From positions 1 to 64,000 of the forward strand of contig CAJYYA010000021.1 in the NCBI GenBank assembly GCA_913778905.1: 64,000 nucleotides of DNA. The letters are read 5' to 3'. The position numbers were made by a program, and so were the translations under genes. The DNA comes from an uncultured Naasia sp. (GTDB lineage: Bacteria; Actinomycetota; Actinomycetes; Actinomycetales; Microbacteriaceae). This document shows, piece after piece, positions 742 to 14,762 of this stretch. The notes below the pieces were generated by a model. That model made no database searches, had not been told where the DNA came from, and saw only the letters and a program-made list of their open reading frames with translations. Numbering within the stretch: position 1 is the first letter of the stretch; each line of letters opens with the position of its first letter.

Positions 742-2580
<1,839 letters not shown>

Positions 2581-2596
<16 letters not shown>

Positions 2597-2628
2597 CGGG
2601 TAAGAAGGAGACGACCGCCGAGAAGCAT
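2581..2628 (-). CDS. Leucine-rich leader peptide upstream of leuA
   Basis: A 15-residue open reading frame, MLLGGRLLLTRRDGA, has five leucines, all encoded by CTT or CTC. It starts 25 bases after the upstream synthase gene and ends 75 bases before leuA. A TAACGT hexamer (2636-2641) ends seven bases before the ATG, the geometry of a promoter -10 box giving a leaderless transcript, and no clear ribosome binding site precedes the ATG. The peptide itself probably has no function beyond stalling ribosomes when leucyl-tRNA is scarce. Confidence 0.78.
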
Positions 2629-2652
2629 GGCGGACACGTTACCAGGTACCCG

Positions 2653-5181
2653 CTAGGGGGAAGTCCGCCGGGCTACGGCGGAATCTCGCGCGACGCCCGC
2701 TCCGACCAGCCCGCGCAGGACGGCGTGGAGCAGCGCCATGCGTTGCTGGACCGACATGCTCGGTAGGTAGGAGCGCGTGAGGGCGACCACGACCGCGGGG
2801 AGCGCCAACGGGTCCGGGTAGGCGACGATCAGCGGTCGGAGCTCGGGACCGAACTTCTGCTTGAAGGACAGAAGCGACTGGAATCCGTAGAGCGACTCCA
2901 TTCGTCGTCCCAGGTAGCCGAGCATGTGCTCGGCCATACCCGGCCCGTACGCCCGCGAGTCGTCACCCGCGTCGGGACCGGCACGGCCGACACCCGCGAG
3001 CGGGGCAGCGGAGAGGCTCACGAAGTCGACGTCGTCGTCGCGAGCTCGGAAGATCGCCTCGGCGATCAGGAATTCCATGACGCCGTTCATGCTCTCGGTT
3101 CGACGCCTCATCAGGTCGAGCGTCCACCCCACGATTCGGCCGTCTCGCCACGTAGGCAGCCAGCTGGTGACCGCGAGGACCGTCCCGTCCGCGGCGACGG
3201 CGAGCATGAGTCGGACGTCCGGATCCGCGAGCTCGTCGACGCCGCCGAGAGTGAAGCCCATCTCCGGTAAGGGTCGCCCGGCGACCCAATCCTCGGAGAC
3301 GATCCGCACCTGGTTGCGCTCACCGTGACCGAGTTCGCTCCACCCCTCCCACCTGGCCTCGACGCCCGCTTTGCGCGCGCGGTTGATGGACGTGCGGATG
3401 TCCTTCCACCGACCGCCGACGAGCGAGAACGATGACGGGTCGATGAGCGCGTCTTCGCCGACAGCGGCGTGACTCCATCCCAGGCGTTCGAACGAACCGG
3501 CGCTCGTACCCTCGACGCTGTAGAAAGCCGGGATCCATCCGCGGGTTTCGCAGAGGTCGGCGAATCCGCGGATGACGCCCTCCTCGTCGCAGGTGCCGTC
3601 CGACCCCATGACCGGTCCGCCGATCGTCAGGGCCACGTCGCCGACCACTCGATACGCGACCCCGGCGCGGACCCCGGGGGCGAACCAGTAGGAGTTACCC
3701 GGCCAGAGGGCCATGTGCGCGATCGCTCCGGACGATCCGTGACGCAGCAGCCTGCGGAAACGTTCGCGGTCCGGGGTTCCTTCACGAGTGGGGGTGTCGA
3801 TGATGAGGAAGACCGTGACCGAGACGACGGCGAGGCCGACGGCGGGCCCGAGCCAGGATCCCAACTCGCCGAGGCCGGGACTGGCAGGCGTCGAGGGCAC
3901 GACCTGACCGAGATAGCCGGCGGGAACGAACCGCCCGACGAACCACCCCCAGAACTCCCCGGCTCCTCCGGCCCGTGACAGTCGCCAGACGATCGCCGAC
4001 ACCATGGTCGCGACCGCGAGAGACGCCGCGACGACCAGGACGAAGACCTTGCGGGCGCGGGCAGTGGAACGCACGGGGAAGATCCGTCGCGACGCGATCA
4101 GAGCCGCGGCGAGCGCCACGGGGGCGAGCACGGCCAGCAGGGTCTCGCCCGGCGTGGGCGGCGTCTGCGCGTTCTGTCTCGCGAGGCGGGCGGGGTCGGC
4201 CAGCACCGGAAGGAGCATCGAGGTGAGAGCGCTGAGCGTGCCGGATGCGAAGAGGACGGCGGCGCCAGCCCACACCCCGGCTCGACGGCCCCGGGACAGC
4301 GCCCATGCGGAGAGCGCGAGCAGCACGACCGGGAGGAGAGCCAACAGGTACGGGCCGGGCGCCGACATCCGTTCGGCGGCGACGGTGACCCGGCATGCGG
4401 CGGTGGCGACGCCGTCGATGCAAGCCTCGAGCCCCGCCGAGCGTCCACCGCGGAGGACGACGCCGGCGAGATGGACGGGTCCCTGCGGGTGGCCGGTCAC
4501 GAGCGTGAGGAGGGGCCCCGCCGCCAGGAGCGCGGTCAGGCTGGCGAGGAGCAGTCTCGATTCGTGATGCGAGCTGGGCGGGATGCGGAACGGGTCGCGC
4601 CGCGCCCGGGTCGCCAGCACCCCGACGACCAGGCCCGTCAGTCCGGCGACGAAGCGCCCGACGGACTCGGGCCCGCCGACGTAGAGGGCGAGCACGACGA
4701 GGACCCCGAGCCCGATCACGCGGATGCGGCGTCGCCAGAGCTGATCGGCGAACGCGCTGGCGGTGAGGATGGTGCCGGTCACCGCGGTCAGAGGGTCGAG
4801 GATGGGGGTCTCGGCGAGACGCTCGTCCCACCGCCGTCCGAGCACGAGCCCCAGGGCGTCGACCGCGATGCCGCCCCATACCCCGACGGCGCCGGTGACG
4901 ACGAAAGCGGCCAGCGTGCGCCATGGCCCCATCAGGCGTTCGGCCGGACCTACGAGCAGGAGGATCAGACCCACAGCGGACACGACCGCCGGGACTCCGA
5001 CGGCCAGGACCATCGAAGCCACCGTCGCCCCGACGATCCGCCCGGAATCGGCCGTCGCGAACCCGACGCCCCCTTCGACGAGACTCCCGGGCCGAGCGAG
5101 CACCGTTCCGCCGGCAAGCGATGCGAGGACGACGAGCGACGCGAGGAGGCAGGTCATCCACGATCGACGGACGAGCCGCAC
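2653..5181 (-). CDS. MprF-like aminoacyl-phosphatidylglycerol/lipid synthase (DUF2156), paralogue 1
   Basis: An integral membrane protein of about 840 residues. The N-terminal two thirds is multiple helices; the first block, with an AERLMG-type turn and a WRRRIRV motif, resembles rhomboid-like modules. The last about 340 residues form a DUF2156 domain like that of MprF, with GNSYW, RWKDIRTSINRAR, SLSAAPL and ELRPL blocks. Such domains move an amino acid from aminoacyl-tRNA onto phosphatidylglycerol or diacylglycerol; which amino acid cannot be told. The upstream esterase stop lies in this gene's ribosome-binding region. GTG at 5181 has GGAGG eight bases upstream; GTGs at 5190 and 5205 are alternatives. 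It is a full-length paralogue of 8661-11144. Confidence 0.85.
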   Translation of the reverse strand: MRLVRRSWMTCLLASLVVLASLAGGTVLARPGSLVEGGVGFATADSGRIVGATVASMVLAVGVPAVVSAVGLILLLVGPAERLMGPWRTLAAFVVTGAVGVWGGIAVDALGLVLGRRWDERLAETPILDPLTAVTGTILTASAFADQLWRRRIRVIGLGVLVVLALYVGGPESVGRFVAGLTGLVVGVLATRARRDPFRIPPSSHHESRLLLASLTALLAAGPLLTLVTGHPQGPVHLAGVVLRGGRSAGLEACIDGVATAACRVTVAAERMSAPGPYLLALLPVVLLALSAWALSRGRRAGVWAGAAVLFASGTLSALTSMLLPVLADPARLARQNAQTPPTPGETLLAVLAPVALAAALIASRRIFPVRSTARARKVFVLVVAASLAVATMVSAIVWRLSRAGGAGEFWGWFVGRFVPAGYLGQVVPSTPASPGLGELGSWLGPAVGLAVVSVTVFLIIDTPTREGTPDRERFRRLLRHGSSGAIAHMALWPGNSYWFAPGVRAGVAYRVVGDVALTIGGPVMGSDGTCDEEGVIRGFADLCETRGWIPAFYSVEGTSAGSFERLGWSHAAVGEDALIDPSSFSLVGGRWKDIRTSINRARKAGVEARWEGWSELGHGERNQVRIVSEDWVAGRPLPEMGFTLGGVDELADPDVRLMLAVAADGTVLAVTSWLPTWRDGRIVGWTLDLMRRRTESMNGVMEFLIAEAIFRARDDDVDFVSLSAAPLAGVGRAGPDAGDDSRAYGPGMAEHMLGYLGRRMESLYGFQSLLSFKQKFGPELRPLIVAYPDPLALPAVVVALTRSYLPSMSVQQRMALLHAVLRGLVGAGVARDSAVARRTSP

Positions 5182-5186
5182 GACCC

Positions 5187-6488
5187 TCACCTCCGGATAC
5201 CCCACCGGTCCACGAGGGAGGCGAAGCCGACCTCGAACCCGAAGTGAGCCGTGTTCCAGTCATGGGCGGATCCGGGTGCGATGACCGATCGGACGTCCAT
5301 GCCGGCATCGCGGGCCGCCGCCGCCACGGCGTCGGCGTAAGCCGTGTAGCGCTCATCGTTCTCGCCACTGACGAAGACGGCGACGCTGTCGGGGTAGGGC
5401 GCGTTCGCGGCGAGGATGGACTCCGGCTGGGCGCGGAGGTAGGCCGCGGCGTCGCCGCCGAAACCCACGTCGATCGTCTTCTCGGGATCGCCGAGACTCG
5501 GGACCCGTTCGCCGGCGACGTCGATGATCGAGCCGAACACCTCGGGATCGCCCGCGCCGATCTGGATCGAACAGGTGCCACCCTGAGAGAAGCCGGCGAT
5601 CGTCCACCCGGTGCGATCCGTCGTCACGTTGAGGTTCTGCGAGATCCAGAGCGGGAGATCGTGAGTGAGGTAGGTCTCGGTGTCCCCGGCCGGCGAGTCC
5701 ACGCACATGGGGTTCGCGCCGGGACTGCCGAGTTGGTCGGGCACGACGATGATGGGCGCCACCCCGTTGTTGTCCCGGGCGATGGCGTCGGCGATCGACG
5801 GTAGTCGCGCGGACGAGAACATATCGGCCGGCGACCCCGGCTGACCTGACATCGCCACGACCACAGGGAGCGCCGGAGGATTCGGGATCAGGGCGGCGGG
5901 CGGCAGATAGACCACTCCCGGGCGGGGCGCGAACTCGGCGTGACTCGTCGGGATGTCCACCCGGCCGGAGACGCCGACGGTGGGGAGCTCGTCGGGCGCC
6001 GTCCACTCCGCCAACGGCGTCGGGTCGTCGACGTGCGGAGGGAGCGCGAGCGGAGCGGAGTACTCCTGCCCGAGGAGTCCCGCCACCGTCCGGTACTGCC
6101 CGAAATCGACGTTGATGGTCAGGAACAGGCACCAGCCCGTGAGGATGATCGCCAGGACCGCGACGAGCACCCTCCGCCGCCGACCCGTGACGATGTTGCC
6201 CACCGCGATACCGAAGCCGGCGAAGGCCACGACGTCGCCCGTCCGGACGACGGGGGTGAGCGCCACTCCGAAGACGTCCATCCAGTCGTCGAGGACGAAG
6301 ACGAGTGCCGCCCCGAGCGCGGCGCCGCCGAGGAGGCCGGCACCCACCACGAGGGCGAAACGCCTGCGGTCGACCCGGAGGTGCGCGTCGGGCACGAGAA
6401 GGGCGACGAGGAGCGCTCCGGCGAGGGCGTAGCTCACGGCGAAGACGGGACCGTCGATGAGGCTGATGCTCTGCCCCCACGTGTCCAT
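5187..6488 (-). CDS. Membrane-anchored alpha/beta-hydrolase (esterase), paralogue 1; putative aminoacyl-lipid hydrolase
   Basis: Four N-terminal helices (about residues 14-33, 44-67, 86-101 and 106-126) lead into an esterase-D/mycolyltransferase-like alpha/beta hydrolase domain. The nucleophile is Ser301 in GFSQGG; the likely acid is the Asp in SGENDER and the base the His in GSAHDWNT. Arginine-rich loops after helices 1 and 3 put the catalytic domain outside the membrane by the positive-inside rule. The stop abuts the downstream MprF-like gene, so the two are probably translationally coupled. In Corynebacterium, lipid aminoacyl synthases occur beside hydrolases that remove the amino acid; this role is inferred. 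AGGGG precedes the ATG. Confidence 0.8.
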   Translation of the reverse strand: MDTWGQSISLIDGPVFAVSYALAGALLVALLVPDAHLRVDRRRFALVVGAGLLGGAALGAALVFVLDDWMDVFGVALTPVVRTGDVVAFAGFGIAVGNIVTGRRRRVLVAVLAIILTGWCLFLTINVDFGQYRTVAGLLGQEYSAPLALPPHVDDPTPLAEWTAPDELPTVGVSGRVDIPTSHAEFAPRPGVVYLPPAALIPNPPALPVVVAMSGQPGSPADMFSSARLPSIADAIARDNNGVAPIIVVPDQLGSPGANPMCVDSPAGDTETYLTHDLPLWISQNLNVTTDRTGWTIAGFSQGGTCSIQIGAGDPEVFGSIIDVAGERVPSLGDPEKTIDVGFGGDAAAYLRAQPESILAANAPYPDSVAVFVSGENDERYTAYADAVAAAARDAGMDVRSVIAPGSAHDWNTAHFGFEVGFASLVDRWGIRR

Positions 6489-6602
6489 CGCGCCCCTGTC
6501 GAGTGCCCCGTCGGGGCGTCCTTCTCAGGATTTCATGAGCGGACTCCCCGGCTGATCATCGGCGGCTTTCGGCGTGGCGAACGCTCCCTCGTCGACTGCG
6601 GG

Positions 6603-7313
6603 TCAGATGAGTCGGCGTTCGTGCGCGAACACGACGAGCTGCACCCGATCCCGCAGCGCGAGCTTCGCGAGGATGCGGGAGATGTGGGTCTTCACTGTCG
6701 CATCGCTCACGAACTCGTGCGCGGCGATCTCCGCGTTGCTCAAGCCGCGGGCCGCGAGGAGGAAGATCTCGCGCTCGCGGTCGGACAGCGGGTCCAGAGC
6801 GCTCGGGTCGCCCCGCCGCCCGTCCCCGAAATGTTCGAACAGCTCGGAGGTCGCCGAGGGGGCGATGACCGCCGTCCCCGAATGCACCGTCCGAATGGCC
6901 GAGAGCAGGAACTCCGGCTCCGCGTCTTTCAGCACGAATCCGCTCGCTCCGGCTCGGATCGCCCGCGCAGCCGCCTCGTCGAGGTCGAAGGTCGTCAGGA
7001 CGAGAACCCGGGGTCCCGGAGCGTCGGATGCGCGCGCATCGTCGATGATGCGGGCCGTCCCGTCGATCCCGTCGACGCCCGGCATGCGGATGTCCATGAG
7101 CACCACGTCCGGTGCGGTCTTGCGTGCGACGACGCGCGCCGACTCACCGTCGGACGCCTCGCCGACCACCTGCAGATCCGGCTGGGAGTCGATGACCATC
7201 TTGAGCCCCGAGCGGAACAGCGCCTGGTCGTCGACGAGGAGGACCCGGATGGGCCGGTCCCCAGTGGTCTCGCTCGCCGCCGGGAGAGTCCCGGACGTGA
7301 CATCGGCGGTCAA
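6603..7313 (-). CDS. NarL/LuxR-type two-component response regulator
   Basis: The protein is 236 residues: an N-terminal receiver domain (acidic pair Asp28-Asp29, phosphoacceptor Asp74 in LMDIRMPG, conserved Lys in FVLKD) and a C-terminal LuxR-type helix-turn-helix starting at LSDREREIFLLAARG. The TTG start overlaps the TGA of the histidine kinase (GTTTGA), so the pair is translationally coupled; no better start exists before the receiver domain. Its targets are not visible, but the pair sits between the two synthase/esterase groups and is a natural candidate to control them. Confidence 0.92.
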   Translation of the reverse strand: MTADVTSGTLPAASETTGDRPIRVLLVDDQALFRSGLKMVIDSQPDLQVVGEASDGESARVVARKTAPDVVLMDIRMPGVDGIDGTARIIDDARASDAPGPRVLVLTTFDLDEAAARAIRAGASGFVLKDAEPEFLLSAIRTVHSGTAVIAPSATSELFEHFGDGRRGDPSALDPLSDREREIFLLAARGLSNAEIAAHEFVSDATVKTHISRILAKLALRDRVQLVVFAHERRLI

Positions 7314-8587
7314 ACCTCGACCGCCGATGCGTTCGATCCCGTCGGCGAGACGATCCGCACCGGTTGAGTGCGAGCCGCCGTGCGGTCCAGCGGGAAGGTC
7401 GCTCGGACACGGAAGCGACCATTGGTGCCGTCCGCGGCGCTGAACGTGCCGCCGGCCAGCGTCGCGCGCTCGTGCATGCCGGGGATGCCGTGTCCAGCCG
7501 GGTTGACGACCCGTTCCCCCTCGATGACGTCGTTGGTGACGGTGATCGCGAGCGAGGTGTCGGTCCAGTCGAACTCGATGTCGATGGGACGTTCCCGGCC
7601 GCCGTGACGCAGCGCATTGGTCAGGGACTCCTGCACCACCCGGTACACCGCGAGACCCGTCGACTCGCTGACGGGCACTCCCAGACCGTAGCTCGACCAG
7701 TCGATCTCGAGACCTGATTCTCGGAATCCGCGGATGAGACCGTCGAGCTCGTTCATGCCGGGTTGCGGGCCGCGCTCCTGCGAGTGGCGGAGTTCGGTGA
7801 GCAGGGCCCGGACATCGACCAGGGCCTCGCGAGCGGTCGTGGCGATAGTGGTCAGCGCCTCCTCGACGGCCGGCGGGGAGTTGCGAGCGGCGTAGCGGGC
7901 TCCGTCCGCCTGCGCGATCACGACGGCGAGCGAATGGGCGACGATGTCGTGGACGTCGCGGGCGACGCGATTGCGCTCCTGCTCGACCGACACGTCGTGC
8001 TCGGCGGTGTTGAGCTTGACGGCGGTCTCCTCGACCGACCGTCCGAGGGACTGGCGGGACAGGCCGAGACGCACCAGCGCACCGGCGAGCCACGGAACGC
8101 CCAGCAGGGCGGCTCCGAGCAGCACCGCGCCGATCCCCCACCCGGCCCACAGCGAGCTGGCGCTCAGCACGAGTGCGCCGAGGGCGACGGCGATGAGGGC
8201 GAAGATGCGGGTCAGTTGCTGTCCGTAGGCGGCGGCGCCGAAGATCACCACGAGGAGCGGGAACCAGGCGACCGTCACGAGATCGACCAGGCTGACGTAT
8301 CGCCCGACGAAGACCATCGAGGGGACGAGGAGAGCCATCACGGCCGAGGCGATGATGAGCGCCGCGGCCGGCCGCGCACGGTGCAGGACGACGGCTACGG
8401 CGAGCGGGAGGGCGGGCACCACGAGGCCCCCGCCACCGGTCGTCGCGACGCCGAGCGCGTAGACCACGAGGTAGAGCGCTCCGAGCGACACCTCGACGGC
8501 GACGCGCCATCTGAGCCAGTTCTCCCGGGTCATCAGATCGAGGAGGCGTTCCTCCCAGGAGCGCTGCCGGGCGGTCGTTTCGTTCAT
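7310..8587 (-). CDS. NarL-family sensor histidine kinase
   Basis: A 425-residue protein with about five N-terminal helices and almost no extracytoplasmic loop. A HisKA_3 dimerisation domain follows, with phosphoacceptor His213 in ARDVHDIVAH, then a HATPase_c domain with an HGIPGMHERA G-box. Kinases of this LiaS/DesK-like build often sense conditions in the membrane itself. The next gene, the response regulator, overlaps its stop. The ATG at 8587 is chosen; an in-frame GTG three codons upstream (8596) is possible. It begins 73 bases after the second synthase gene, close enough for the same transcript. The signal is unknown. Confidence 0.9.
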   Translation of the reverse strand: MNETTARQRSWEERLLDLMTRENWLRWRVAVEVSLGALYLVVYALGVATTGGGGLVVPALPLAVAVVLHRARPAAALIIASAVMALLVPSMVFVGRYVSLVDLVTVAWFPLLVVIFGAAAYGQQLTRIFALIAVALGALVLSASSLWAGWGIGAVLLGAALLGVPWLAGALVRLGLSRQSLGRSVEETAVKLNTAEHDVSVEQERNRVARDVHDIVAHSLAVVIAQADGARYAARNSPPAVEEALTTIATTAREALVDVRALLTELRHSQERGPQPGMNELDGLIRGFRESGLEIDWSSYGLGVPVSESTGLAVYRVVQESLTNALRHGGRERPIDIEFDWTDTSLAITVTNDVIEGERVVNPAGHGIPGMHERATLAGGTFSAADGTNGRFRVRATFPLDRTAARTQPVRIVSPTGSNASAVEV

Positions 8588-8660
8588 GGTCTGCACGCTA
8601 CGCGGCCCGGAACACCGCGGCGAGGTGCAGAGGGCGCGATCATCCTCGAGGTGCGGCGAA

Positions 8661-11144
8661 TCATCCTGCGGGGGTGGGCGTCTTGTCCTTCTCGTCCGCT
8701 TGGGGAGCTTTCGCCGCGGGCTTCGCCGCCGCAGCCTTCTTGGGCCCCGCCAGCTCGCGGGTCATCGCGAGCAGCTGACGCGTGGTCAATCCGGGCAGGT
8801 AAGCCCTGACCAGGGCGATCCCGATCGCCGGAATCGACACCGAGTCGGGATATGCCAGGTAGAGCGGGCGCAGTTCGGGGGCGAATTTGAGTTTGTAGTT
8901 GAGCAGGCTCTTGAAGTGGTACAGCCGCTCCAGCCGCGAACCCACGCCCTCCAGGAGGCGCGCCGCCGCTTCCGACCCCGACGATCCCGGTGCGATCCGC
9001 GACAGTGGCGCCGCGGACAGGCTGACGAACTCCACGCCCTCGCGTTGAGCGCGCAACACGGTCTCGGCGATCAGCATCTCCATCTCGCCGTTGGCCGAGG
9101 TCGTGCTGCGGCGCATGAAGTCGAGCGTCCACCCGCGGATCCTGCCGTCGCGGTAGGTCGGTAGCCAGCTCGTGATGGCCGAGACCCGTCCCGTCCCATC
9201 GATCGCGAGCATCAGGCGGACGTCTTGGTCACGCAGTTCGTCGATGCCACCCAGCGTGTATCCCATCTCCGGGATCTCCTTGCCGGCCAGCCATTCCTCG
9301 CTGATCCGGTTGATCTGGTTGCGGAGACTGACCGAGAGCTCGGACCACGCCGTCCAACGGGCCTCGACACCCGTGCGGCGTGCGCGATTGATCGATGTGC
9401 GGATGTCCTTCCACCGTCCGCCCTCGAGAGTGAAGGTCTGCGCATCGATGCGCGCCTCCTCGCCGATGATGAGCAATTGCCAGCCGAGATCGGTGAAGAC
9501 GGGTGCAGACTCGTCGTCGATCGCGTAGAAAGCGGGCACCTCGCCGTGGGCGCTCGAGGACTCGATGAACGCCCGGATGGCCTCCCCGCGTCGCTCCGGA
9601 GGCCCGATGGGGTCACCCAGTGCGATCGCGACTCCGCCCGTGTGCCGGGTCGCCACGATGCCGGCTCCGTCCGGAGCGGACCAATAGGAGTTCCCCGTCC
9701 AGGTCGCCATGAAAGACAGGGCCCCCGCACCGTCCCGGTGGAGCATCTCGCGGACCCGCGCCTCGGTCGCCGCCGATCGACCCACGCTGCGGGCGCGAAC
9801 GAGAGCCACTGTCGCGATGACGAGGACCACCCAGAAGACGGGTCCGGTCACGGAGTAGAGGGCGACCGCCACGGGCCCCTTAGGACTGACATCGAACAAG
9901 GACCAGTGCAGGAACCCGACCGGGACGAAACGCGACGGAAGCAGGGTGAGCAGTTCGAGGAGACCGACATGCGGGCTGAACTGATGCGACGCCAGAAGCC
10001 CGCCGACGACGAAGGTCGCCGAACAACCGACGAGGGTGGCGAGGATCACCAGGCCCCAGTTGCGGCCGACGGTTCCGGTGCGGGTGGGGAACTGGCGCAG
10101 GCTGAGAAGCAGCGCGGTCGAGACCGCGGCGGGCACGGCGACGGCGATGATCGCCCCGATGGTCTCCTCGCCCTTGAAGACGAAGGTCTCCGACGACGCC
10201 GCGGGGCCGTAGAAATAACGAGAGGTGAAGTACATCAGCTCGAGCAGGGCGAGCAGGGCGGTGACCGCCGCCGCGATGAGGGCTCCGGCGCGACGACCCC
10301 GGAGGACTCCCCAGCCCGCCACCGCCAGCACCACCAGCGGAAGCACGGCCAGGAGAACCGCCGACGGGCTGGGCAGATGCCGGTTGACGACCTCGCAGGC
10401 GATGCCGATGTCGACGGGGCAGGCCGCCTCACCGATCGGCGACTCGCCCGCGAAGATCAGACGTGGCAGCAGGTGCAGAGGTCCGTGCGGGGCCTTCGAG
10501 AAGAGGCTGATGAGGGGGCTGAAGGCGAGCGCGATGACCGTTCCCGCCAAGAGGGTCCGGACCTCGTGCTGCGAGCTGACGCCCGCCAGCCTGCCCCTGG
10601 TCGCGCGGCGCGCGAGAAGGGCGCCGAAACCCATACCGATGAGCGCGGCCCCGGTGCGCACCAGATCCGTCGAATCCCCGACGTAGAGCAGCACGAGCGC
10701 GAGGCCGCCGAGACCGAGGATACGTATCCGCCGTCGCCACAGCGGGCCGGCGAAGGAGCTCGCGGCGAGAGCGAGACCGGCGAAGCACGCGACCGGTTCG
10801 AGCGGGGACAGCGTTCCCGACCCGGCGGTCCACACGACGCCCAGCGCCTCCGTCCAGGACACCGACAGGAACCCGATGAGGTGGGCGAGCGCACCGGGGA
10901 CGACGTAGGACAGGGCGGCACGCACCGACCCCATCGCCCGCTCGGCGGGCGCGGCGATGACCACCAGCCCGATCACGACGGCGACGAGCGACAGCACCGA
11001 GCGCGGGAGGAAGACCGATCGCAGGGTCGCCGAGGGGCCCCCGCCGATGCTCCACGCCAGGACGGTGCCGCCGACGAGTACCACTGCGAGGATCGTGGTC
11101 AATGGATAGCGTCGGGCGAGCCCGAGCAGACCGGATGATCTCAT
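8661..11144 (-). CDS. MprF-like aminoacyl-phosphatidylglycerol/lipid synthase (DUF2156), paralogue 2
   Basis: About 827 residues, with the same build as the gene at 2653-5181: a helical membrane region followed by a C-terminal DUF2156 transferase domain carrying the same GNSYW, RWKDIRTSINRAR, SLSAAPL and ELRPLYLAYPD blocks. The C-terminal tail is rich in Ala and Lys. The ATG at 11144 overlaps the esterase stop as ATGA and has GGAAGG upstream, so it is preferred over a start 18 codons earlier at 11198. Two synthases in one locus may differ in lipid acceptor or amino acid, as with alanyl-PG and alanyl-diacylglycerol synthases in Corynebacterium; which is which cannot be assigned. Confidence 0.85.
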   Translation of the reverse strand: MRSSGLLGLARRYPLTTILAVVLVGGTVLAWSIGGGPSATLRSVFLPRSVLSLVAVVIGLVVIAAPAERAMGSVRAALSYVVPGALAHLIGFLSVSWTEALGVVWTAGSGTLSPLEPVACFAGLALAASSFAGPLWRRRIRILGLGGLALVLLYVGDSTDLVRTGAALIGMGFGALLARRATRGRLAGVSSQHEVRTLLAGTVIALAFSPLISLFSKAPHGPLHLLPRLIFAGESPIGEAACPVDIGIACEVVNRHLPSPSAVLLAVLPLVVLAVAGWGVLRGRRAGALIAAAVTALLALLELMYFTSRYFYGPAASSETFVFKGEETIGAIIAVAVPAAVSTALLLSLRQFPTRTGTVGRNWGLVILATLVGCSATFVVGGLLASHQFSPHVGLLELLTLLPSRFVPVGFLHWSLFDVSPKGPVAVALYSVTGPVFWVVLVIATVALVRARSVGRSAATEARVREMLHRDGAGALSFMATWTGNSYWSAPDGAGIVATRHTGGVAIALGDPIGPPERRGEAIRAFIESSSAHGEVPAFYAIDDESAPVFTDLGWQLLIIGEEARIDAQTFTLEGGRWKDIRTSINRARRTGVEARWTAWSELSVSLRNQINRISEEWLAGKEIPEMGYTLGGIDELRDQDVRLMLAIDGTGRVSAITSWLPTYRDGRIRGWTLDFMRRSTTSANGEMEMLIAETVLRAQREGVEFVSLSAAPLSRIAPGSSGSEAAARLLEGVGSRLERLYHFKSLLNYKLKFAPELRPLYLAYPDSVSIPAIGIALVRAYLPGLTTRQLLAMTRELAGPKKAAAAKPAAKAPQADEKDKTPTPAG

Positions 11145-12424
11145 GAGGTGATCCCCCACCTTCCGAGCAGCAGGGTGAAGCCGCGTTCGAATCCCCACCT
11201 GGCTGTGTTCCAGTCGTGGCCGGTGCCCGGCGAGATCTCTCGGGTGACGATCATCCCCGCCTGTTCGGCGAGTTCCGACACCTGCTCGACGTATCCCGTG
11301 AACTGCACGTCGTATTCCCCCGATGCGAAGTAGGCGATGTAGTTCGAGTAGGGCCCGTGAGTGGCGAGGATCTGCTCAGGCGTGGCCGCCTCGTACGCCG
11401 CCTCGTCACCGCCGAAGCCCTCGTCGATGGTGTCCTCCTCGGACCCGACGGACGGGACGAACTCGCCGCTGATGTCGACGATCGAGCCGAAGAGATCGGG
11501 CCGCGCGCCGCCGAGCTGGACCGAGCAGGTGCCGCCTTGCGAGAAGCCCGCGATCGTCCACCGCGAATGGTCACGGGTCGCCGGGAGGTTCTTGACGATC
11601 CACCTCGGCACGTCGACCGTGAGGTAGTTGGCCGAGTCACCGAGGGCGCCATCGACGCACATCGGGTTGTGGTCGGGGTCGGTGAGCTGGTCGGGTACCA
11701 CCACGATGGGTGCGAGGCCGCGATGTTCCTCGGCGATCCCGTCCAGAACGGAGGCGAGGTCGCCGGCGCCGAACACGTCCTCGGGCGACCCCGGCTGGCC
11801 TGACATCGCCATGACGACGGGGAGGTCGGGCGGGTTCGCGACCAAGGCCGCGGGCGGGAGGTAGAGGTAGGCAGTGCGAGGCACGTAGTTCTCGCGAGAT
11901 GAGGGGATGTCGACGGCACGCACCACGCCCTCCTCGGGCATGTCCGCGGGCGGCTGCCAGTCCTCGACCGTGGGCGGGTCGGTGGGGGTGGGCGTCGGGG
12001 TGGGCGACGCGGCCGCGAGCCGAGCGGCTTCGGCGTTCGCCGGCCCATCTTCGAGATCGACGCGGATGGACGTGCCCGTCACGAAGAGCGCGACCAGGAC
12101 GACGAGCGTGGCGACCACACGTCCGGTGGGGCGGCCCCCCACGAAGCCCGCGACCGCGATTCCGACGAACACGGCACCGGCGATGATAACCGTGGCGGTG
12201 ACCCACGGCTCAGGTGCGTCGAGACCCGCCCACGCATCGCGGACCACCCACAGGAGGACGCTTCCGGCCGCCGCTCCCGCGATCGCCCCTGCTCCGAGCC
12301 TCCCCGCGACCCGAGAAGCCTTCTCCGTCCGCGACCGGATCGCGAAGAGCAGAGCCGCGAGACACAGCAGCAACACATAGGCGACCGCCACGAGCGCCGC
12401 ACGCAGGAGGTCGAATTCGCTCAT
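11141..12424 (-). CDS. Membrane-anchored alpha/beta-hydrolase (esterase), paralogue 2
   Basis: The second of three related esterases, 427 residues. Four helices are followed by a Pro/Thr-rich linker (about residues 140-152) that the other two lack, then the hydrolase domain with Ser294 in GFSQGG, a putative acid Asp in SGEYDVQ and His in GTGHDWNTA. Basic loops after helices 1 and 3 place the domain outside the membrane. The ATG at 12424 shares bases with the upstream stop (TGATG), and its own stop overlaps the synthase start, so three genes are translationally chained. The linker may let the enzyme reach further from the membrane. Substrate inferred from neighbours only. Confidence 0.78.
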   Translation of the reverse strand: MSEFDLLRAALVAVAYVLLLCLAALLFAIRSRTEKASRVAGRLGAGAIAGAAAGSVLLWVVRDAWAGLDAPEPWVTATVIIAGAVFVGIAVAGFVGGRPTGRVVATLVVLVALFVTGTSIRVDLEDGPANAEAARLAAASPTPTPTPTDPPTVEDWQPPADMPEEGVVRAVDIPSSRENYVPRTAYLYLPPAALVANPPDLPVVMAMSGQPGSPEDVFGAGDLASVLDGIAEEHRGLAPIVVVPDQLTDPDHNPMCVDGALGDSANYLTVDVPRWIVKNLPATRDHSRWTIAGFSQGGTCSVQLGGARPDLFGSIVDISGEFVPSVGSEEDTIDEGFGGDEAAYEAATPEQILATHGPYSNYIAYFASGEYDVQFTGYVEQVSELAEQAGMIVTREISPGTGHDWNTARWGFERGFTLLLGRWGITS

Positions 12425-13719
12425 CAGGACGCGATCCCCCACTTCGGCAGCAGCAAAGTGAATCCGTGCTGGAAGCCGAACTTGGCGGTGTTCCAGTCAT
12501 GCGCAGTGCCCGGTGAGACCTCTCGGGTGACCGTCATCCCGGCCTGCGCCGCGAGCGCGGATACCTGGTCGATGTAGGGGCCGAAGATCGGGTCCTCGCT
12601 TCCCGATGTGAAGTAGGCCGGGTAGTCCGTGTAGGGCGCGTGCGCCTTGAGGATCTCAGCGGGCGTCGCAGCGAGGTAGGCGGCCCGATCTCCGCCGAAC
12701 CCCTGGGCGATCGTGTCCGCCTCGTTCCCGATGCTCGGCACCAGCTCGCCGCTGATGTCGATGAGGGATCCGAACAGCTCGGGGTGACCCGCACCGAGCT
12801 GGATGGCGCAGGTGCCGCCCTCCGAGTAGCCCGCTATCGTCCACCGCGAATGGTCGGTCGTCACCGGCAGGTTCGCGAGGATCCACGCAGGCACATCGGC
12901 GGTCAGATAGGTCGCAGCCTGCCCGATCGGCCCGTCGACGCACATCGGATTGGTTTCGGGACGCTGAAGCTGGTCGGGCACCACCATGATCGGAGCGAGC
13001 CCGTTGTGCGCAGCCGCGATGCCGTCGAGGAACACGTTCAGCTGGCCGGAGGTGATGAGATCCGTGGGCCCTCCGGGCTGACCGGACAGCGCGACGACCA
13101 CAGGAAGCGGCGGCGGATTCTCGACGAGCGCTGCCGGCGGAAGATAAACGACAGCGTCTCGCGGCGAGAACTTCGCGGTGACCGCCGGGATCTGCACGCT
13201 CTTGACAACGCCCCTGCTCGGCATCCCCGCGGGAGGCCTCCACGATGCGAGGTCGCCGGTGGCGGCCGCCACCGGCTCCGTGAGCGGGGTGATGCCGTTG
13301 TGACCGAGAAGGTCGCCCACCGTGCGGAATGCGGCGAAATCGATGTTGATGGTCATCGCCATGGCGACGAGGGTGAGGACTGCCAGCACGGGCGAGAGCA
13401 GTCGGCGAAGTAACCGCCCGAGGATCATCTCGCCGATCACGTAACCCAGCACAGCGAATCCGATGACACTCGTGATGCGCACCACCCAGGTGAGCGAGAT
13501 CTCGAAGACGTTCCAGACGTCGCCGAGCAGCCACGTGAGCAGGCCACCGACGAGCGCCCCGACCGCGATGGCGGCTCCCAGGACGCGCGCTATCCGCCGC
13601 GCTCCGCCACGGGCGCCCGTGCGGATGCGAAGGGCCACCAGCACGGCGGCGAGGACACCAGTGACGACGTACACGCCGATGACGAAAGGGCCGTCCACGA
13701 GCGAGATGTCGTCCACCAT
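12424..13719 (-). CDS. Membrane-anchored alpha/beta-hydrolase (esterase), paralogue 3
   Basis: First gene of the block, 431 residues. The start is well supported by AGGAGGGG seven bases before the ATG. The build is the same as its neighbours: four helices, basic cytoplasmic loops, extracytoplasmic hydrolase domain. The nucleophile elbow is GYSEGG (Ser299), not GFSQGG; the acid is probably the Asp in SGSEDP and the base the His in GTAHDWNTA. It shares a membrane-proximal motif (INxDF...RTV..LLG) with paralogue 1, so these two may be the closer pair. Its stop overlaps the start of paralogue 2. Confidence 0.78.
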   Translation of the reverse strand: MVDDISLVDGPFVIGVYVVTGVLAAVLVALRIRTGARGGARRIARVLGAAIAVGALVGGLLTWLLGDVWNVFEISLTWVVRITSVIGFAVLGYVIGEMILGRLLRRLLSPVLAVLTLVAMAMTINIDFAAFRTVGDLLGHNGITPLTEPVAAATGDLASWRPPAGMPSRGVVKSVQIPAVTAKFSPRDAVVYLPPAALVENPPPLPVVVALSGQPGGPTDLITSGQLNVFLDGIAAAHNGLAPIMVVPDQLQRPETNPMCVDGPIGQAATYLTADVPAWILANLPVTTDHSRWTIAGYSEGGTCAIQLGAGHPELFGSLIDISGELVPSIGNEADTIAQGFGGDRAAYLAATPAEILKAHAPYTDYPAYFTSGSEDPIFGPYIDQVSALAAQAGMTVTREVSPGTAHDWNTAKFGFQHGFTLLLPKWGIAS

Positions 13720-13814
13720 GCGCCCCTCCTCATCGTCTCGGCCTGCTGAAGACTCGAACGTCGATGCTACTGAGTCCTTCTCAGCGGCAGACCGTCATCG
13801 GCATGTGGGCCGCG

Positions 13815-14762
13815 CTAGAACCCGAGGCGTCCCAGTAGCTTCGGGTCGCGCTGCCATTCCTTGGCGACCTTGACCTGGATCGCCAGGAACACGGGCGACC
13901 CGACGAGCGGTTCGATCTGGGCACGCGCCGTCTGACCGATCTCGCGGAGGCGGCTGCCCTTCTTGCCGATGATGATCCCCTTCTGACTGTCGCGCTCGAC
14001 CCAGAGGTTCACATAGATCTCGAGCAGGTCCTTGTCCTCCCGCTCGATCATGTCGTCGACGGTGACCGCGAGCGAGTGCGGCAGCTCGTCGGTGACGCCT
14101 TCGAGCGCGGCCTCGCGCACGAACTCGCCGATGCGCATCTCGAGACTCTCGTCCGTGACGTCCTCGTCGGGGTAGAGCTTGGGCGACTCGGGCATGATCT
14201 GGATGAGCTCGGAGACGAGGGTCTCGAGCTGGATCCCCTCGAGCGCGGAGACGGGGACGATGGCTTCCCACTCGCGCAGCTGAGACACGGCGAGCAGCTG
14301 CTCCCCCACTTTGTCCCGCGGGACGGAGTCGACCTTCGTCACGAGGGCGACCTTCTTGGCGCGCGGATACTTGTCGAGCTGGTCGTTGATGAACCGGTCG
14401 CCCGGGCCGATGGGGTCGCCGGCCGGCACGCACATGCCGATCACGTCGACATCCGCGAGGGTCGACTGGACCAGGTCGTTCAGGCGCTCACCCAGCAGGG
14501 TGCGCGGGCGGTGGATTCCCGGGGTGTCCACGACGATGAGTTGACCGTCCTCGCGGTGCACGATGCCGCGGATGGCGCGTCGCGTGGTCTGCGGCTTCGC
14601 CGAGGTGATCGCGACCTTTTCGCCGACGAGGGCGTTCATGAGGGTCGACTTGCCGACGTTCGGTCGCCCGACGAACGAGACGAACCCGGCGCGATGCGTC
14701 GCCGGACGGCCGCTCGAGACCTGCTCGTGGCCATCGGTGCTCTGGTCGTCGCTCGCGCTCAC
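13815..14762 (-). CDS. era: GTPase Era, 30S ribosome maturation
   Basis: The 315-residue protein matches Era: an N-terminal GTPase domain (P-loop GRPNVGKST near residue 33, G3 DTPG, G4 TKVD) and a C-terminal KH domain with GIIIGKKGSRLREIG that binds the 3' end of 16S rRNA. It assists late 30S assembly in the cytosol. The gene overlaps the end of the CBS-domain gene by four bases and is the last gene of the ybeY-corC-era run, as in many Actinobacteria. Confidence 0.97.
   Translation of the reverse strand: MSASDDQSTDGHEQVSSGRPATHRAGFVSFVGRPNVGKSTLMNALVGEKVAITSAKPQTTRRAIRGIVHREDGQLIVVDTPGIHRPRTLLGERLNDLVQSTLADVDVIGMCVPAGDPIGPGDRFINDQLDKYPRAKKVALVTKVDSVPRDKVGEQLLAVSQLREWEAIVPVSALEGIQLETLVSELIQIMPESPKLYPDEDVTDESLEMRIGEFVREAALEGVTDELPHSLAVTVDDMIEREDKDLLEIYVNLWVERDSQKGIIIGKKGSRLREIGQTARAQIEPLVGSPVFLAIQVKVAKEWQRDPKLLGRLGF

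Follow-up and report, generated by a model that had tools for sequence, protein, structure and literature searches.

A duplicated esterase-synthase locus of probable aminoacyl-lipid function beside a two-component system in an uncultured Naasia species

The stretch of DNA analyzed here, called the window throughout, comprises 64,000 nucleotides (nt) of contig CAJYYA010000021.1 from an uncultured Naasia sp. of the Microbacteriaceae (assembly GCA_913778905.1). Seven genes lie between era and leuA, all on the minus strand: estA, estB and synA, then a sensor kinase (HK) and a response regulator (RR), then estC and synB (Table 1). Both synthases match the Pfam transferase family PF09924 (276 and 248 bits, cut-off 27.5) and are 40-41% identical to each other. 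The three esterases match PF00756 (46, 36 and 43 bits for estA, estB and estC, cut-off 22), with identities of 49% between estA and estB, 51-52% between estA and estC, and 50-56% between estB and estC. HK matches HisKA_3 (67 bits), and RR matches Response_reg (83 bits) and GerE (62 bits). An initial annotation of this DNA described the arrangement as esterase-esterase-synthase, kinase-regulator, esterase-synthase on one strand, with overlaps inside each group, and the coordinates confirm it. The overlaps are 19 nt (estA/estB), 58 nt (estB/synA), 19 nt (estC/synB) and 4 nt (HK/RR), the last depending on an RR start that was chosen inside a longer open frame. The intergenic gaps are 95 nt (era-estA), 64 nt (synA-HK), 114 nt (RR-estC) and 147 nt (synB-leuA). 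Thus a PF00756 esterase stands directly upstream of a synthase, on the same strand, in both estB-synA and estC-synB.

Table 1. Genes, domains and candidate regulatory repeat of the era-leuA locus (positions in the window).
Feature	Coordinates	Strand	Description
estA	12424..13719	-	431 amino acids; apparently membrane-anchored PF00756 esterase; paralogue 1, tandem sister of estB
estB	11141..12442	-	433 amino acids; apparently membrane-anchored PF00756 esterase; paralogue 2
synA	8661..11198	-	845 amino acids; rhomboid-like part, further transmembrane helices, DUF2156/PF09924 aminoacyl-tRNA:lipid transferase
HK	7310..8596	-	428 amino acids; NarL-family (HisKA_3) sensor kinase; 6 N-terminal hydrophobic segments
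RR	6603..7313	-	236 amino acids; NarL/LuxR-type response regulator; start approximate
estC	5187..6488	-	433 amino acids; apparently membrane-anchored PF00756 esterase; adjoins RR as in G001-G004
synB	2653..5205	-	850 amino acids; second synthase; AlphaFold model, mean pLDDT 84
synA rhomboid-like N-terminal domain	10614..11120	-	limits approximate, by analogy with synB; PF01694 match 10800-11018
synA catalytic domain (PF09924)	8850..9746	-	
synB rhomboid-like domain	4609..5160	-	residues about 16-199; first transmembrane helix, short helix, five more helices; T140 and R184 stand in place of the catalytic Ser and His
synB catalytic domain (PF09924)	2818..3756	-	
Direct repeat GGATGA-N15-GGATGA upstream of HK	8640..8666	-	candidate response-regulator operator

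To place the locus among its relatives, we counted the two lipid genes in 249 Microbacteriaceae genomes, with esterase matches accepted at E at most 1e-30 and synthases defined by PF09924. The esterase was found in 99 genomes and PF09924 in 114; both were present in 98, the esterase alone in 1, the synthase alone in 16 and neither in 134. That 98 of 99 esterase genomes carry a synthase, while 16 synthase genomes lack the esterase, indicates that the esterase depends on the synthase. Linkage is also tight. Among the 150 esterases listed, at least 93 have a listed synthase no more than 6 kb away, and of these esterases 82 are upstream on the same strand, 8 downstream and 3 on the opposite strand. 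In 80 named loci gathered with a Corynebacterium-centred profile, the synthase starts within 400 nt downstream of the esterase in 59 and does not in 21; it is directly downstream in 32 of the 34 loci with a Corynebacterium title. The function of this gene pair, common among Microbacteriaceae relatives, is very probably the aminoacylation of membrane lipids. The proposal of an aminoacyl-lipid locus with two paralogous synthases is accordingly borne out by the PF09924 matches, the identity between synA and synB, and this co-occurrence. DUF2156 synthases were also found on Cnuibacter physcomitrellae plasmids; locus L056 lies on contig C4 of genome G034, and G034 holds five synthases on four contigs.

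The genus is represented by 9 genomes, the window genome (G000) included. Seven of the other eight carry one synthase each, and the eighth, which is 68% complete, has none. A single esterase-synthase pair lies downstream of era in G001-G005 and G008; it is followed at once by leuA in G002, G003 and G008, whereas in G001, G004 and G005 leuA is some 6-9 kb away. In G007 the esterase, which stands between RR and leuA, is frameshifted, and the synthase is found elsewhere. The order HK-RR-esterase-synthase is common to G001-G004. In a neighborhood search across the Microbacteriaceae, as suggested in the initial annotation, the doubled set was seen, among the matches listed, only here, the window genome being the only one of 109 genomes with listed synthases to have two within 15 kb, and the single-copy form beside era is common to congeners and to some other genera. 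Another genus (G219) has tandem esterases ahead of a single synthase.

Phylogenetic trees place the additional copies within the genus. Both window synthases fall inside an 8-row genus clade (support 100/91 in one tree and 91/97 in another), the three window esterases fall inside a 9-row genus clade (100/100), and estA and estB are sisters (100/99 and 99/97 in two trees). The first tree set excluded esterase matches below 200 bits and synthase matches below 60 bits, and the second tree used 16 of 44 synthase rows and 15 of 24 esterase rows. On this evidence, local duplication inside the genus probably gave rise to the additional synthase and esterases. Support for joining synA and synB is only 63/83, so that the trees do not fix the order of duplication, and a recent origin of the two from each other was not upheld. 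Constraining the three esterases to one clade was neither favored nor rejected (p-AU 0.50). At 75 catalytic-domain columns conserved in at least 90% of the other sequences, synA departs at 7 and synB at 2, compared with 0-3 for genus orthologues, and both window synthases thus keep the conserved pattern of the domain. Since five more distant members of the family or order depart at 8-11, these columns give only a hint that the substrate of synA has changed relative to that of synB.

The esterases had been described as four-helix proteins. A simple hydropathy scan agrees for estA and estB, with 4 N-terminal segments each, but finds 3 in estC; a further segment lies inside the catalytic domain of estA. 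The positions of positively charged loops suggest, by the positive-inside rule applied to these hydropathy segments, that the catalytic domain faces outward. The presumed catalytic triad, S301, D378 and H409 in estC numbering, does not vary across 23 aligned proteins, estA, estB and estC among them. When the esterase profile was compared with solved structures, the matches included "Protein PS1" at 2.5e-8. PS1 is a mycoloyl transesterase of C. glutamicum, so a transfer reaction has a precedent in the esterase fold. In G024, an esterase-family match with no N-terminal membrane part (L047, 7651-8664, plus strand) adjoins an esterase-synthase pair on the opposite strand.

The N-terminal half of the synthases is, in our view, the most interesting lead at this locus. 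Compared with solved structures, the synthase profile matched GlpG rhomboids at 7e-5 over positions 19-118. The Pfam rhomboid family PF01694, in a scan that covered about 27 synthases in 40 genomes (a tally from the match table), scored above its cut-off at the N-terminus of five synthases from relatives (29.7, 28.6, 27.8, 22.9 and 22.8 bits), the 27.8-bit match lying in a frameshifted gene. Profile-profile comparison was made against 24 true rhomboids, namely those of 30 fetched loci with GxSG and AHxxG in one frame, so that this profile was chosen by its catalytic motif. A Corynebacterium-rich synthase alignment (A4) matched it with probability 93 and E 2.5e-7 over 179 columns; a Microbacteriaceae alignment (A2) matched at E 2.8e-7 over only 96 columns, with the catalytic positions outside. 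Besides the window rows, alignment A4 took in 43 of the 63 usable named rows, and a further alignment, A5, took in 41 of 65.

For an active rhomboid protease, a serine in GxSG and a partner histidine would be expected, and this Ser-His pair was found in no aligned synthase. In A4 the serine column is mostly Thr, Ala or Gly and the histidine column Arg or Ala; serine occurs in 2 of 45 rows and histidine in 6 of 45, never both, and in A2 each occurs in 0 of 25, the columns in both cases being read from the A4 profile alignment. Rhomboids are built as a first transmembrane helix, a short helix and five further helices. In the AlphaFold model of synB, residues 1-200 have a mean pLDDT of 85.5 and form helices at 16-36, 54-66, 71-92, 94-121, 139-152, 155-176 and 179-199, which gives the same order. 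Hydropathy over 45 synthase rows places 8-13 membrane segments before the catalytic domain. Judged from the profiles and this model, the synthase N-terminus belongs to the rhomboid superfamily at the level of the family, with the catalytic pair missing. Among the matches listed from open-licence PMC full text, which covers few subscription papers, none couples a rhomboid part to an MprF-type synthase; the one listed paper that mentions both names Rv1337 (a rhomboid) and Rv0204c (an MprF-like translocase) as separate proteins (PMC6656915), and Microbacteriaceae and MprF are mentioned together in a Leucobacter genome paper.

The closest known system is the pesT-alaDAGS pair of C. glutamicum. Work by Smith and colleagues in 2015 is said to have found PesT to be required, together with AlaDAGS, to form alanyl-phosphatidylglycerol (Ala-PG). 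The initial annotation had neighboring Corynebacterium hydrolases undoing aminoacylation; if PesT acts as reported, it is needed to make Ala-PG, and the "reversible switch" built on that idea is probably a misreading. In keeping with this, one paper attributes the Ala-PG of C. glutamicum to a secondary enzyme (PMC10580965). Alanyl-diacylglycerol (Ala-DAG) and Ala-PG are listed among the lipids of wild-type C. glutamicum in another (PMC8698533). As in pesT-alaDAGS, the esterase of the Naasia locus is directly upstream of an MprF-type synthase, a homologous pair being adjacent in the Corynebacterium loci counted above. The locus here differs in its two synthases, three esterases and kinase-regulator neighbor. 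Identities are about 24-30% between estC and the Corynebacterium esterases and about 28-33% between synB and their synthases; at the C. silvaticum locus L144, for example, an adjacent pair scores 59 bits for PF00756 and 220 bits for PF09924.

Two further relatives share the catalytic domain. Mycobacterial LysX, a lysyl-diacylglycerol (Lys-DAG) synthase fused to a lysyl-tRNA synthetase (LysRS), also carries PF09924. However, it matches the synthase profile only from position 304-362 on, without the rhomboid-like part, and the window synthases have no LysRS fusion and score 196.7 and 156.0 bits against the LysX family (NF002821, cut-off 742). Six transmembrane helices are stated for LysX and for C. 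pseudotuberculosis AlaDAGS in PMC10580965, and for LysX this agrees with its shorter match to the profile. In a Mycobacteriaceae genus, an esterase of the same family lies directly 3' of a full lysX in 3 of 3 fetched loci (L107-L109; LysX scores 1838-1867 bits). That esterase could convert Lys-DAG into Lys-PG. Canonical bifunctional MprF/LpiA likewise has the catalytic domain at its C-terminus; structures 4V36, 4V34 and 7F47 match both window synthases or their profile, and 6LVF is matched by the profile and by synA. Canonical MprF carries a flippase where the window synthases have the rhomboid-like part. Against NCBIfam bifunc_MprF (NF033480) the synthases score only 207.8 and 133.2 bits (cut-off 600), over the C-terminal part alone. 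AhyD is a hydrolase that undoes MprF products. Like AhyD and AcvB/VirJ, aminoacyl-PG hydrolases that are serine-hydrolase-type partners of MprF, the esterases here accompany an MprF-type enzyme. Unlike AcvB/VirJ, they match PF00756, with no VirJ-type family in the Pfam scan, and appear membrane-anchored, whereas AcvB, which undoes MprF products, is described as a soluble periplasmic protein (PMC13197417).

Taken as a whole, an explanation that we consider somewhat probable is that the locus holds two copies of an actinobacterial PesT-AlaDAGS-type module beside an older resident kinase-regulator pair. At the inner side of the membrane, the synthase would load an amino acid taken from aminoacyl-tRNA onto a membrane lipid that is probably diacylglycerol. 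Because the catalytic domain needs aminoacyl-tRNA, it works inside, and because the esterase domain is apparently outside, the lipid must cross between them. As the flippase part of the full MprF profile is unmatched, the synthase's own N-terminal rhomboid-like domain is proposed as a possible translocator. On the outer face, the membrane-anchored esterase would take the aminoacyl lipid as donor and pass the amino acid to phosphatidylglycerol, a step that would lengthen the pathway, not run it backwards. A single module probably followed HK-RR in the ancestor of the genus; in the window lineage the module would have been copied to the other side of HK-RR and its esterase then duplicated again. 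HK-RR probably regulates its own promoter, and estC-synB may be read from there, with estA-estB-synA upstream of that promoter. In this account the gene content, homology, linkage, doubling inside the genus, kinase-esterase independence and recurrence of the repeat discussed below are seen in the sequences, and the substrates, the direction of the esterase reaction, lipid movement through the rhomboid-like domain and the regulation are inferred. A bolder version is unlikely in its entirety: in actinobacterial synthases a dead rhomboid would have replaced the MprF flippase as translocator by thinning the membrane in a Derlin-like manner, the esterase would transacylate aminoacyl-diacylglycerol onto phosphatidylglycerol, and in the window species the device would have been duplicated around the kinase into one regulated and one unregulated copy.

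Several observations weigh against this explanation. The choice of transfer over hydrolysis leans on C. glutamicum, through the reported PesT study and, separately, through the secondary-enzyme account in PMC10580965. C. glutamicum is outside the 80 named loci, so the identity with PesT and AlaDAGS is drawn from synteny and homology in other Corynebacterium species. In some genomes the esterase follows the synthase, lies on the other strand or is not linked to it. For the rhomboid-like half, PF01694 scored below its cut-off in seven more synthases (10-19 bits, E up to 1; 15.8 for synA of the window) and listed no match for synB or the remaining synthases of the 40 genomes scanned. In a separate check, a Rhodococcus synthase reached 16.8 bits over nearly the whole rhomboid profile, and the C. 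silvaticum synthase, like LysX, gave no match. We also count 11 membrane segments in the C. silvaticum synthase that lies beside an esterase, versus the six published for C. pseudotuberculosis AlaDAGS in PMC10580965.

The locus had been called two-component-controlled, and here the family-wide counts point elsewhere. Kinase matches (E at most 1e-48, some of which may be paralogues rather than the era-linked orthologue) occur in 129 of the 249 genomes. Split by gene content, 53 genomes have kinase and esterase, 76 the kinase alone, 46 the esterase alone and 74 neither; the two are independent (odds ratio 1.12, Fisher p 0.70). Upstream of era in the window are genes we take, from their sequences, to be corC, ybeY and phoH, and their order is repeated in relatives. 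In seven genomes (G009, G010, G012, G014, G029, G031 and G033) the series phoH-ybeY-corC-era-HK-RR, with leuA downstream, is present, and these genomes have neither an esterase nor a synthase match. HK-RR lies at era with the lipid genes elsewhere in G016, G025 and G028 (11 kb away in G028). The lipid genes stand beside era without HK-RR in G005 and G024, and in G008 regulator remnants in three pieces (L038, 3588-4184) adjoin an intact esterase-synthase pair, so the pair outlives loss of the two-component genes. Given the independence and the era-HK-RR loci without lipid genes, dedicated control of the lipid genes by HK-RR is rejected as a rule for the family. HK-RR is better seen as an older resident of the era-leuA site and an old neighbor of the lipid genes, over which it has at most putative control. 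Between era and the kinase of G003 lies a 372-amino-acid open frame that has hydrophobic stretches and matches no Pfam family (L034, 3495-4610, minus strand).

Control confined to estC-synB, which is compatible with the explanation we prefer, is a tentative but serious alternative: HK, RR, estC and synB would form one transcript from an autoregulated promoter, with estA-estB-synA outside it. The kinase-regulator-esterase-synthase order recurs in G001-G004, and the 114-nt gap between RR and estC holds no terminator-like site, although that gap can hold a promoter and the shared transcript is a prediction from sequence. A scan for sigma-70-type promoters returned 0, and the window yielded no tRNA genes or Rfam families; 2 terminator-like sites were found, both on the plus strand and within chance, and none on the minus strand of 2300-14000. 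A direct repeat, GGATGA-N15/16-GGATGA, stands ahead of the kinase in all 6 kinase-bearing genomes of the genus (G000, G001-G004 and G007), beginning at a distance of 37-73 nt from the approximate kinase start. It also precedes the kinase in G009, which has no lipid genes, and an exact copy is missing from the other 13 of 20 loci examined. In the window it occurs exactly once, 43 nt before the HK start codon, spanning the end of synA and the synA-HK gap. The repeat was first noticed by eye, so its significance is after the fact, and what counts is its recurrence at one position. Exact copies are not rare: the whole window genome has 4 (1 for a reversed control), and in most genomes they are commoner than the control and often far from HK. 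A search of the window with 2 mismatches gave 21 matches against 6.3 expected, so near-matches mean little. The repeat thus suggests a candidate operator in a self-regulated promoter before HK, and control of estC-synB through a shared transcript is possible. No exact copy was found before estA or estC, and an operator shared by the two was rejected, one 2-mismatch match (13709-13735) overlapping the estA start and being of chance quality. Nothing was found at the locus that would place estA-estB-synA under HK-RR control.

Somewhat less probable, and to our minds doubtful, is that HK-RR serves an ABC-FtsX transporter, a neighbor in many genera that was lost in this one, and that it stands beside the lipid genes only because both occupy one chromosomal site. 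In 9 of the 11 stretches read downstream of RR (L059, L112, L119 and L214-L219; not L213 or L223), the regulator is followed by an open frame for an ABC ATPase, and Pfam ABC_tran and FtsX were confirmed in both intervals tested (L059, and L218 from a genome without lipid genes). The 76 of 129 kinase-bearing genomes that have no esterase fit this idea as well. However, at least 23 of the 53 kinases in esterase-bearing genomes have a listed esterase on their own strand no more than 8 kb away, which is far above random placement, and this adjacency may be functional or ancestral. The order varies: the esterase stands upstream of the kinase, or downstream at a distance of about 2-3 kb or about 4-6 kb. 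In the 4-kb cases (L059, L112 and L119), the ABC ATPase and an FtsX permease stand between RR and the esterase. The transporter was perhaps the original partner of HK-RR in the Microbacteriaceae.

We think it distinctly unlikely that the esterases hydrolyze aminoacyl lipids while HK-RR switches surface charge on and off. Hydrolysis is a live rival, since operon-linked hydrolases exist (lpiA-acvB in Agrobacterium, PMC13197417), and the esterase-synthase co-occurrence fits a hydrolase equally well. The same-strand proximity of kinases to esterases, the repeat before HK in the genus and the lack of a minus-strand terminator-like site across the locus would also suit a switch. Against it stand the kinase-esterase independence, the pairs beside era without HK-RR or with RR fragments only, the missing repeat before estA and estC, and the Corynebacterium esterase, reportedly needed for Ala-PG synthesis. 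That the esterases act on unrelated substrates such as other cell-wall esters and only ride along is very improbable, for although PF00756 is a broad family and the substrate here is deduced, the 98/99 co-occurrence and tight linkage extend over Microbacteriaceae and Mycobacteriaceae.

The two-component result is a caution, as neighborhood alone had suggested control that the family-wide counts do not support. Should the esterase act as a transferase and the rhomboid-like half as the translocator, as the preferred explanation proposes, Actinobacteria would make aminoacyl lipids by a route different from that of MprF. The fusion of a rhomboid to the synthase would then be a new role for inactive rhomboids.

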